38,529 nucleotides of DNA from Bacteriovoracaceae bacterium. GTDB taxonomy: Bacteria > Bdellovibrionota > Bacteriovoracia > Bacteriovoracales > Bacteriovoracaceae. The position numbers were made by a program, and so were the translations under genes. Positions 4,799 through 9,795 of the stretch are shown here, piece by piece (the stretch's first letter is position 1; each line of letters begins with the position of its first letter). Location: NCBI GenBank assembly GCA_947461145.1, contig CANHJD010000006.1, forward strand, positions 1 through 38,529. The letters are read 5' to 3'. Under the pieces are notes generated by a model. The model saw only the letters and a program-made list of their open reading frames with translations, did not search any database and had not been told where the DNA came from.

Positions 4799-5488
4799 TT
4801 AAGCTGCCTTGTCTGTTTGAACAGTTGAGGCTTTTTTAGTGCCTAGTAGATCAAGAAGCTTTACTGAGTTTTCTTCAATCTCCTGGATCATTTTTTCACC
4901 CTTGGCCATAAGGTATGAGTGAACAACCATAAGTGAGATCGCTGAAATCAATCCTAAGGCCGTCGTATTCATTGCAACGGCAATACCTTCTGCCAATAGC
5001 TGAGCTTTTTGTGAGGCTTCTGCCTGCGCTACAGCTGCAAATGATTGGATGAGGCCTTGGATCGTTCCGAGTAATCCCAAAAGTGTTGAGAGGTTTGCAC
5101 AAAGTGCAAGATAGGAAAGTCTTCTTTCAATCAAAGGGACAGTTTCTAGAATGCTTGCTTCTAGTGCGTCCTGAATTTGTTCCTTTGACTGATTGGCCCT
5201 CTTTAGACCATTCTTCATGACGAAAGCATTTAGCGAACTTGATTCAGTACATACTTGGATTGAATCTTGAACTTGATTTCCAATGACATATTTCTTGATG
5301 TTTGCCATAAGGCTTTTGCCATCAATATCATACTTGAAATAGTTCTTGAGTCTTTCGGCAGCTAACGCAATCCCGATACACCAAACGATAGCAATAATCC
5401 ACATGAAGATTCCACCCTCAACCATGAATCTTGCTGTCCATTGAAGTAAATTTTCTTGGTTAGCAACTTGTGCAGCGACTTGTTCCAT
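4799..5488 (-). CDS. MotA/TolQ/ExbB proton-channel family protein
   Basis: Three hydrophobic segments; LETVPLIERRLSYLALCANLSTLLGLLGTIQGLIQSFAAV is the MotA_ExbB signature. Track ORF starts at a TTG at 5518; the ATG at 5488 (MEQVAAQ) has a GGAGGG Shine-Dalgarno and is preferred. Confidence 0.88.
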   Translation of the reverse strand: MEQVAAQVANQENLLQWTARFMVEGGIFMWIIAIVWCIGIALAAERLKNYFKYDIDGKSLMANIKKYVIGNQVQDSIQVCTESSSLNAFVMKNGLKRANQSKEQIQDALEASILETVPLIERRLSYLALCANLSTLLGLLGTIQGLIQSFAAVAQAEASQKAQLLAEGIAVAMNTTALGLISAISLMVVHSYLMAKGEKMIQEIEENSVKLLDLLGTKKASTVQTDKAA

Positions 5489-5593
5489 ATTAAATCCCTC
5501 CAGGGAAAAGAGAATCAACTCCGCAGAAAAAATCTGTGTTTTGAATTTTTGTAAGAGAATTTTTGATGTGGGACTGTTTCATTTATTTTTGAA

Positions 5594-5610
5594 ACAAGAT
5601 CCAGTCTTGT
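5594..5610 (-). repeat. Small hairpin in the leader of the TolQ operon
   Basis: ACAAGA-TCCAG-TCTTGT, a perfect 6-bp inverted repeat with a 5-nt loop. Confidence 0.55.
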
Positions 5611-5614
5611 GGGA

Positions 5615-5680
5615 TTTTTTCAGAAGGAGTATCAACATACGTGCAGCGTGAATAAACGTCCAACAACTTATCTGAAAAAA
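5615..5680 (-). promoter_or_regulatory. Candidate structured leader element, copy A
   Basis: 33-bp conserved element at 5632-5664 (TCAACATACGTGCAGCGTGAATAAACGTCCAAC on +) enclosed by a perfect 10-bp inverted repeat TTTTTTCAGA (5615-5624) / TCTGAAAAAA (5671-5680). Homologous to 9680-9747. Confidence 0.7.
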
Positions 5681-5700
5681 GTGTGTCCTAATTTTTTCTC

Positions 5701-5728
5701 ATTCTACACTTATAAAAAAAAGTATCAA
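5701..5728 (-). promoter_or_regulatory. Sigma70-like promoter of the TolQ operon
   Basis: On the minus strand TTGATA (5723-5728) - 16 bp - TAGAAT (5701-5706). Same boxes and spacing at copy B. Confidence 0.6.
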
Positions 5729-5803
5729 TTGAGTTTTCAAAAAAAATGTCATTCTGCAAAGATTCGAAGTGGTTGGTTGGAGTTGCCAAAATATGATGTC
5801 AAT

Positions 5804-8189: not shown

Positions 8190-9575
8190 TTATTTCACGT
8201 AATAAACTTTAATCGTTGCACCAACAGGGGGAAGATCATTCTGAGCAAACTTTATGGACCTTGAAATTGAGTCATACGTAAAATTTGTAACTAGAGAATC
8301 ATTGACGTAGACTTTCAAAGTCCCAGGTTGTGGGGTATGGCCAAGAGCAAAGCTATCTAACAATTTAATTAGTGAATCACCCATTCCTGATAGTGACTTG
8401 TAAAAATCTCCTCTGATATCGGAGACGATTCCAGAAGTTTGTGAGGAAGCATCTTTATATCTTTGTGAGCCGGTTGTTACACCATAGTCACAACAATTAG
8501 AATTAAAGACATCCACAATTGAATACATTTTGATTAAACCAGCTGTGGACTTAAAAGATTTTAAATAGTCCATATAGCTTGAAACAGACAGAGGTGACTG
8601 ATCCTCTTCGTCAGAAATTAATACAACAGCAAGGTAAGCGTCTGGTCGTAGAAAAGTGGACGCATATTTCTCCATAAATCCTTGAGTCGCTTCAAGGCCT
8701 TTTTCTTTGCCGGATCCATGAGTTCCTACATTCACGAGATTTCTAAAATCATCCATAAATTTTTGAGGATTTGACTGGGCCATAACAGCATTTAACTTAC
8801 TTTCTGAGCCTGGAACCACTGCACCTTTCAAATAAGGACGACTGGTATCCGTTGTAGTAATTGCCATCTTAAAATCTACGTTCTTCTGAATAAACTCATC
8901 GATGAAAGCAGAAAAGTTTGACCCTAGTGCGTCCTGCTCATCATTCATAGATCCTGAATTATCAATGACCCAAAGGATGTCCAATTTTTTTGAACTTTCA
9001 GATGTTTGAGTAAATTTTTCGAAGGTACATCTCGCTTCGAGGCCGATTGTAGGATTTGATTCATCCAAATGGTCAGGATCATTTCCGTGACCGTTATTGC
9101 AATCTCCATAAGTGGTTCCGCCAGTGGTCGCTCCCCCGGCGGTTGATCCATCAACTCCACCGGAAGTTTCGCCACCACTTGTTCCACCGGCGGTTGATCC
9201 ATCAACTCCACCGGAAGTTTCGCCACCACTTGTTCCCCCGGCGGTTGATCCATCAACTCCACCGGTAGTTTCACCACCACTTGTTCCACCGGAGGTTGAT
9301 CCATCAACTCCACCGGAAGTTTCGCCACCACTTGTTCCACCGGAGGTTGATCCATCAACTCCACCGGAAGTTTCGCCACTATCCACTCCACCCTGAGTAG
9401 TATCCCCACCGAAGTCAATTCCACCTTGATCACCACTTCCTGTGGTTGCCCCATCATTGGGAACATCGGTTGGGGTTTCTAAAAAATTTTTTTCGTAAAA
9501 TTGATCTTTATTACATGCTGATAAATTAAAAAGGACTAAGAATGTGATTCCTAAATTAAAAACTCCGGTCTTCAT
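8190..9575 (-). CDS. VWA-domain surface lipoprotein with Gly/Ser/Thr repeat stalk (CglB-like)
   Basis: Lipobox LSAC; MIDAS-like DNSGSM (KLDILWVIDNSGSMNDEQ); VVLISDEEDQS; repeat region between lipobox and VWA domain; RBS AAGGGAG upstream of the ATG. Confidence 0.85.
   Translation of the reverse strand: MKTGVFNLGITFLVLFNLSACNKDQFYEKNFLETPTDVPNDGATTGSGDQGGIDFGGDTTQGGVDSGETSGGVDGSTSGGTSGGETSGGVDGSTSGGTSGGETTGGVDGSTAGGTSGGETSGGVDGSTAGGTSGGETSGGVDGSTAGGATTGGTTYGDCNNGHGNDPDHLDESNPTIGLEARCTFEKFTQTSESSKKLDILWVIDNSGSMNDEQDALGSNFSAFIDEFIQKNVDFKMAITTTDTSRPYLKGAVVPGSESKLNAVMAQSNPQKFMDDFRNLVNVGTHGSGKEKGLEATQGFMEKYASTFLRPDAYLAVVLISDEEDQSPLSVSSYMDYLKSFKSTAGLIKMYSIVDVFNSNCCDYGVTTGSQRYKDASSQTSGIVSDIRGDFYKSLSGMGDSLIKLLDSFALGHTPQPGTLKVYVNDSLVTNFTYDSISRSIKFAQNDLPPVGATIKVYYVK
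9141..9380 (-). repeat. In-frame 51-bp tandem repeat (about 5 units) encoding GGVDGSTxGGTSGGETS
   Basis: ggttgatccatcaactccaccgg... begins at 9141, 9192, 9243, 9294 and 9345, i.e. exact 51-bp period. Confidence 0.95.
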
Positions 9576-9679
9576 GACTAGACTCCCTTAGGAGCGCAGA
9601 GGTGGACAAAAGTTTAATACTGCATCAAATGCACTAGATTAAAAAAATGTGATTTGAGGCAGACTTTTGGCCTTGCGGA

Positions 9680-9747
9680 TTTTCTTGAGATTTGGATTCA
9701 ACATACGTGCAACTTGATTTAACGTCCAACTACAAAATTCAAGAAAA
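9680..9747 (-). promoter_or_regulatory. Candidate structured leader element, copy B
   Basis: 33-bp element at 9698-9730 (TCAACATACGTGCAACTTGATTTAACGTCCAAC on +; 29/33 identical to copy A) enclosed by a perfect 9-bp inverted repeat TTTTCTTGA (9680-9688) / TCAAGAAAA (9739-9747). Confidence 0.7.
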
Positions 9748-9767: not shown

Positions 9768-9795
9768 ATTCTACGCTTCTCAAAAAAGATTTCAA
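9768..9795 (-). promoter_or_regulatory. Sigma70-like promoter of the VWA-lipoprotein operon
   Basis: Minus strand TTGAAA (9790-9795) - 16 bp - TAGAAT (9768-9773), matching copy A. Confidence 0.6.

Follow-up and report, generated by a model that had tools for sequence, protein, structure and literature searches.

A probable cis-regulatory leader RNA family upstream of surface-lipoprotein and gliding-type genes in Bacteriovoracaceae

Results

The locus and its two leader copies

The window, i.e. the whole analysed stretch of 38,529 nucleotides from a Bacteriovoracaceae bacterium (contig CANHJD010000006.1, assembly GCA_947461145.1), includes on its reverse strand a gene for a TolQ/ExbB/AglR-like proton channel and a gene for a MIDAS/VWA adhesin-like lipoprotein, preceded by copies A and B of the same leader element, respectively (Table 1). 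The operon on the TolQ side includes a MotA_ExbB gene and two ExbD genes. The VWA lipoprotein matched the Bdellovibrio MIDAS adhesin model NF052240 (5e-18) and the gliding lipoprotein CglD model NF033765 (7.3e-8), both below the curated cut-offs, and its neighbours matched GltC (5.7e-27, below cut-off) and OMP_myx_plus (above cut-off). On the basis of the GltC-like, OMP_myx_plus, CglD-like and TolQ/ExbD profile matches the region was interpreted as a gliding-type envelope locus.

The 33-nt cores of copies A and B are identical at 29 of 33 positions and are the sole close copies within their own genome. Each core is enclosed by arms that are perfectly complementary within the copy (stem P1), and in both copies the stem lies 20–25 nt downstream of a TTGAWA-N16-TAGAAT promoter, no other promoter-like site being present on either leader. 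The original prediction, made from the sequence alone, had described the two-copy 33-bp element with its identity, enclosing arms and promoters, and had placed it at a gliding-like locus; all this held. It did not include the tandem direct repeat in the loop. It had given a leader of approximately 190–200 nt. The length read from the sequence to the ATG is predicted to be ~206 nt for leader A (ATG at 5488) and ~187 nt for leader B (ATG at 9575), with the transcription start inferred from the promoter consensus. In these two leaders over 80 nt separate the ribosome site from P1, and no link between the two has been shown. Taken by themselves, the two window sequences gave a weak folding signal for copy A (z −0.94) and a moderate one for copy B (z −2.48); it is the relatives that provide the proof of structure.

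A terminator-like hairpin is present within leader A on the forward strand (5522–5538), antisense to the gene direction.

Table 1. Positions of the leader elements and associated features in the window. R1 and R2 are covariance models built from genus sequences and from 91 sequences, respectively.
Feature	Position	Strand	Remarks
TolQ/ExbB/AglR-like proton channel gene, downstream of leader A	4799..5488	−	MotA_ExbB 1.1e-26; tolQ 4.5e-18 (below its cut-off)
MIDAS/VWA adhesin-like lipoprotein gene (MIDASAdhsBdello-, CglD-like), downstream of leader B	8190..9575	−	NCBIfam profiles
Copy A RNA element	5606..5680	−	Covariance model match, positions 1-75; own-genome R1 E=5.8e-15, R2 E=9.0e-12
Copy B RNA element	9672..9746	−	Covariance model match, positions 1-75; R1 E=1.4e-16, R2 E=1.0e-13
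P1 5' arm, copy A, TTTTTTCAGA (RNA UUUUUUCAGA)	5671..5680	−	Pairs with 5615-5624; covaries in relatives
P1 3' arm, copy A, TCTGAAAAAA (RNA UCUGAAAAAA)	5615..5624	−	Stem covaries in relatives
P1 5' arm, copy B, TTTTCTTGA (RNA UUUUCUUGA)	9739..9747	−	Pairs with 9680-9688
P1 3' arm, copy B, TCAAGAAAA (RNA UCAAGAAAA)	9680..9688	−	Sequence
Conserved 33-nt loop, copy A	5632..5664	−	Unit 1, 8-nt spacer, unit 2, AUGUUGA
Loop unit 1, copy A, GUUGGACGU	5656..5664	−	
Loop unit 2, copy A, GCUGCACGU	5639..5647	−	
AUGUUGA, copy A	5632..5638	−	
Conserved loop, copy B	9698..9730	−	Unit 1, unit 2, AUGUUGA
Loop unit 1, copy B, GUUGGACGU	9722..9730	−	
Loop unit 2, copy B, GUUGCACGU	9705..9713	−	
AUGUUGA, copy B	9698..9704	−	
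Leader promoter, copy A	5701..5728	−	TTGATA (5728-5723), 16-nt spacer, TAGAAT (5706-5701)
Leader promoter, copy B	9768..9795	−	TTGAAA (9795-9790), 16-nt spacer, TAGAAT (9773-9768)
Candidate second hairpin P2, copy A (CAAGA-CUGGA-UCUUG)	5595..5609	−	Sequence; weak for copy A taken singly
Shine-Dalgarno of TolQ-like gene within self-complementary UCCCUGGAGGGA	5495..5506	−	Sequence; ribosome-site masking inferred
Shine-Dalgarno hairpin CUCC-UAAG-GGAG upstream of adhesin start codon	9583..9594	−	Same stem, variable loop in adhesin leaders of relatives

Distribution across genomes

Searching with the 33-mer and at most three mismatches found the element in 20 of the 26 genomes of the window's genus and, at this stringency, in no other genus. 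The reversed pattern, used as a control with the same number of mismatches, gave no matches in 146 genomes, and the copies are thus not due to chance. The genomes of the genus usually carry two copies about 4.1 kb apart. Where the contig suffices, one copy precedes the VWA lipoprotein gene and the other the TolQ-like gene, and the intervening OMP, TPR and small-protein genes are shared, at roughly 50–75% protein identity. With a relaxed loop pattern 51 of the 132 family genomes were positive (reversed controls 0). An exact, slightly relaxed pattern run over the GTDB species genomes matched 38 stretches, nearly all of them labelled as Bacteriovoracaceae, Bacteriovorax, Halobacteriovorax or unclassified MAGs. 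A pattern match in a Crocosphaera MAG (L161) was judged a chance match, as it had no R2 match.

Model R1 (E ≤ 1) matched 73 of the 132 family genomes, representing 27 of 48 genera, and model R2 (E ≤ 0.01) matched 90 of 379 genomes of the phylum. Bacteriovoracaceae accounted for 88 of these, including 25 of the 26 genomes of the window's genus. The only matches outside the family, G258 (L194) and G310 (L170), were judged to be chance or false matches because neither has a target-type gene downstream. Several species have 3–5 copies per genome. Also the window's own genome includes a third, diverged copy (L101, C160:4051-4127, reverse strand; R2 E = 2.8e-6), which lies upstream of a CG-type lipoprotein gene and has a second hairpin adjoining the start codon. 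The original extent of two copies was therefore an understatement: many further copies exist in the genus and in other genera, and the element is found family-wide and is likely to be specific to Bacteriovoracaceae. A mobile or viral origin was rejected, there being no exact match among viral contigs.

Covariation of stem P1

Stem P1, of approximately 10–14 bp, surrounds the core at all 34 genus sites. In the arm-swap tests the sites had been chosen by the loop only, not by pairing. Within the genus, the arms of the same site paired at −13.6 kcal/mol and swapped arms at −9.2 kcal/mol (z −10.3, 0 of 20,000 permutations), and at the 29 sites of other family genera the corresponding values were −12.3 and −7.7 kcal/mol (z −9.2, 0 of 20,000 permutations). 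In the 91-sequence model alignment, two-sided changes were present in all 12 P1 pairs. The two-sided cells numbered 210; shuffled data gave 56, and sliding the partner never gave more than 84. The covariation value was 0.589, compared with no more than 0.19 after sliding. This alignment is biased towards structure. In the unfitted genus alignment P1 covariation was 0.361 (0.226 shuffled), and a slide of +1 came close to it (0.300) because some sites pair in a register shifted by one. Strong covariation across relatives shows P1 to be a conserved secondary structure with compensatory changes, and the earlier structured-RNA reading was upheld.

The strand test comparing G-U with A-C in the stem gave only weak evidence (14:10 in register in the unfitted sequence alignment, 73:36 in the model-fitted one), and no significant difference was found between sense and antisense in P1 duplex energies. 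Given this weakness, it is the position and orientation of the sites, together with the second hairpin, that favour action as RNA over DNA.

The tandem repeat of the loop

The loop is 33–36 nt in size and contains two tandem 9-mers, GYUGNAYGU, spaced 17–18 nt and followed by NNGUUGA. The consensus of 91 sites reads G-U-U-G-N-A-C-G-U, 8 or 9 variable bases, G-Y-U-G-N-A-Y-G-U, NN, GUUGA. Invariant positions include G1, G4, C7, G8 and U9 of unit 1, and the middle G and the last GU of unit 2. The units form a direct repeat and are near-identical to each other in one locus (L102).

No covarying Watson-Crick pairs were found within the loop when the aligned sites were searched. A 4-bp ACGU/ACGU loop pairing produced by RNAalifold from the sequence alignment was rejected: being invariant it shows no covariation, and it is broken in other genera. 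Core positions 5 and 22, which are equivalent (the first variable base of each unit), have a strong non-Watson-Crick association over all sites, with the combinations GC, TT, CC and CG. This association tracks clades and no pairing is claimed for it; it is possible that it reflects clade history or a matched recognition position.

Leader features outside P1

A TATAAT-like −10 box was present upstream of the model start at 62% of the sites, against 26% in shuffled sequences. As it is mostly located 15–35 nt upstream, P1 is placed near the mRNA 5' end, with the start inferred from promoter consensus only and without transcript data. The 42 nt after P1 folded better than coding controls (p = 6e-8). 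In the CG-lipoprotein group, a hairpin with a loop of 3–4 nt (P2) lies directly downstream, its own arms giving −10.3 against −7.8 for swapped arms (z −5.0), and its 3' side contacts or includes the Shine-Dalgarno region 5–12 nt before the AUG. This group thus has a second covarying hairpin at the Shine-Dalgarno region. In the adhesin leaders the Shine-Dalgarno sequence is inside CUCC-N4-GGAG, with a constant stem and a changing loop, although there was no genome-wide control for short hairpins of this kind.

No terminator-like hairpin with a T-run was found after P1 at any of 118 sites. A transcription attenuator was therefore rejected, as no intrinsic terminator precedes the gene at these sites or in the window leaders. 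Also a leader peptide was rejected on sequence evidence, the ATG in the copy A core not being conserved. The leader pattern fits translational control better than attenuation, the functional coupling between P1 and the hairpins being inferred.

By eye only, a possible long-range CAAAAGU / ACUUUUG pairing was seen in several leaders, both in the window (9672-9577, reverse strand) and in the adhesin leaders of relatives, between the segment following P1 and the segment directly above the RBS hairpin.

Target genes

The target census included 123 distinct family sites, one of them at a contig end, with target classes assigned by motif. Four classes, i.e. MIDAS-adhesin-like lipoproteins, CG-lipoproteins, TolQ-like channels and other lipoproteins, were found directly downstream of 121 of the 123 sites. 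A MIDAS-adhesin-like lipoprotein with the N-terminal motif CxxxEFYEK followed 62 sites, a lipoprotein with CG after the lipobox 31, and a TolQ/ExbB/AglR-like channel 21. The class of other lipoproteins was formed by a third family (CNxDEFFPTEExxxGADAYC; 6 sites) and by another lipoprotein at a single site. The sites have one orientation relative to the downstream gene, the sense direction, and the census of family sites included no metabolic or transport genes. The element thus immediately precedes, on the sense strand, a limited group of surface genes. This near-exclusive siting before surface-lipoprotein and gliding-motor genes makes a shared cell-surface control switch of the predator likely. 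Control of the gliding-like locus, as first proposed, had to be amended, since the targets include non-gliding lipoproteins.

One copy (L124; G150:C79) precedes an unrelated membrane protein of 619 aa.

Comparison with known RNA families

Rfam 15 gave no matches in the window at the gathering threshold and only chance-level matches at a relaxed threshold. When eight loci of distant copies were searched, the only match was to an unrelated fluoride riboswitch (RF01734, 43.4 bits; L083:87-165), present in the same 3.1-kb stretch as a lipoprotein-type copy; its recovery served as a positive control and shows that the search works. The original prediction had not recognised a known riboswitch class in the element, and the Rfam result agrees with this. 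No published description of it was found in the literature searched, most subscription journals being outside the scope. Cis-regulatory leader RNAs as a general kind are known, while the family, the tandem-repeat loop and the predator-specific regulon appear to be new.

Discussion

Proposed function

The element is likely to represent a novel family of cis-regulatory leader RNAs tuning the translation or stability of a predation and gliding surface regulon; the trans-acting factor and the direction of control are inferred, and no transcript data are available. In the proposed mechanism, P1 near the predicted mRNA 5' end would present the doubled loop, which a single trans-acting factor may read. 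Binding of the factor would set the translation (or decay) of the surface and gliding regulon in step with the predatory cycle, putatively by altering access to a hairpin-masked ribosome site. The first guess for the factor is a dimeric RNA-binding protein, because the loop repeats one short single-stranded motif in direct orientation and intersperses its fixed bases with variable ones; the strongest competing candidate is a small symmetric ligand.

A bolder reading would see here an undescribed RNA regulon of predators. A single factor recognising the loop, perhaps a novel riboswitch ligand whose binding site has two-fold symmetry, would then co-ordinate how prey-contact adhesins, envelope lipoproteins and the gliding motor are translated at the switch between attack and growth. 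Taken jointly, these claims are possible but less likely than not.

Alternative explanations

A new riboswitch class is possible but rather unlikely. The doubled loop would then bind a small molecule, either a two-fold symmetric one (e.g. a cyclic dinucleotide) or two molecules, and release or mask the ribosome site, ligand binding being inferred. This is supported by the invariant loop bases within a covarying stem, the position at the mRNA 5' end and the downstream RBS hairpins. Furthermore, a regulon of motility and adhesion would be an apt target of c-di-GMP, as c-di-GMP signalling governs gliding and predation in Bdellovibrio bacteriovorus (PMC3627812). Against it, there is no multi-helix aptamer but only one covarying helix plus P2, without a covarying Watson-Crick pair in the loop, and the element is confined to one family, lacks metabolic and transport targets and matches no riboswitch in Rfam. 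As to the expression platform, terminators are absent (0/118), P2 contacts the RBS in the CG-lipoprotein group, and the window leaders have only short self-complementary Shine-Dalgarno sites.

A stabiliser or localiser at the 5' end, without a switch, is unlikely. Such a hairpin would guard the mRNAs of surface proteins from decay or bring them to the membrane, which would agree with its location near the predicted 5' end and with nearly all targets being exported lipoproteins or a membrane channel. However, all that such a role requires is a stable stem; it does not call for tandem repeats in which eight loop bases are invariant across the aligned sites.

A DNA operator, which the original prediction had left as an alternative, was weakened to very unlikely. 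In that case a regulator bound to the two direct repeats just below the promoter would block transcription, and the inverted repeat would be incidental or part of the site. The direct repeat 17–18 bp apart near the −10 box is in favour of it, and DNA is still compatible with the G-U strand test. However, the arms outside the core vary in sequence yet remain complementary in register, which would be needless in a duplex-DNA operator; moreover, the sites lie between the −10-like box and the start codon in one orientation relative to the gene, and a second covarying hairpin is present on the same strand.

A CsrA/RsmA target hairpin with GGA in the loop, suggested by UUGGACGU in the genus consensus, is all but excluded, because GGA is not conserved beyond the genus (GUUGCCCGU, GUUGUUCGU and GUUGUACGU, unlike GUUGNNCGU) and the two bases that follow GUUG are variable (G/C/T/A, then A/C/T). 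An integron attC site was dropped, as the conserved block is in the loop and not at the outer ends.

Relation to known systems

The leader RNAs bound by CsrA/RsmA, TRAP and RAT/LicT carry repeated binding motifs for these proteins. The element resembles them in that its structured leader displays a short sequence repeatedly, as would suit binding by a protein dimer or multimer, but its motif GYUGNAYGU is neither GGA nor GAG, it has no terminator/antiterminator pair, and no protein has been identified. With compact translational riboswitches (preQ1, SAM/SAH and guanidine classes in Rfam) it shares a short fold in the 5' leader, with a putatively masked Shine-Dalgarno sequence further downstream. 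It differs from them in having no sequence or covariance match in Rfam, in its one large direct-repeat loop, and in its targets, which are lipoproteins and the gliding motor instead of metabolism. The merRNA of B. bacteriovorus, an abundant RNA of the attack phase that carries a c-di-GMP riboswitch (PMC3627812), is likewise a structured RNA of a related predator functionally tied to the switch between attack and growth. In contrast to the element, merRNA has no controlled gene downstream and belongs to a known riboswitch class, whereas the element is short, has one covarying stem and a tandem-repeat loop, precedes surface genes and has no Rfam match.

With more than 120 sites, the element defines a testable post-transcriptional regulon in predators, in which little is understood of how the attack machinery is controlled. 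The covariance model and the loop consensus allow direct fishing for the binding partner. Should this partner be a second messenger, a new riboswitch class would result; a protein partner would mean a new motif for RNA recognition, the tandem GYUGNAYGU.

The closest known target protein is the MIDAS adhesin Bd0875 of B. bacteriovorus, whose mutant kills prey without invasion (PMC11003981); also the commonest target of the element is MIDAS-adhesin-like. The likeness to Bd0875 does not go beyond the family level (65 bits, the curated cut-off being 700), and that study concerns a different predator family. In the adhesin-like lipoprotein of the window, a long Gly/Ser/Thr/Val/Asp repeat (SGGVDGSTAGGTSGGET) separates the lipobox from the VWA-like domain, and its relatives in other genera have differing low-complexity linkers (Pro/Val, Asp/Asn or Gly/Thr).
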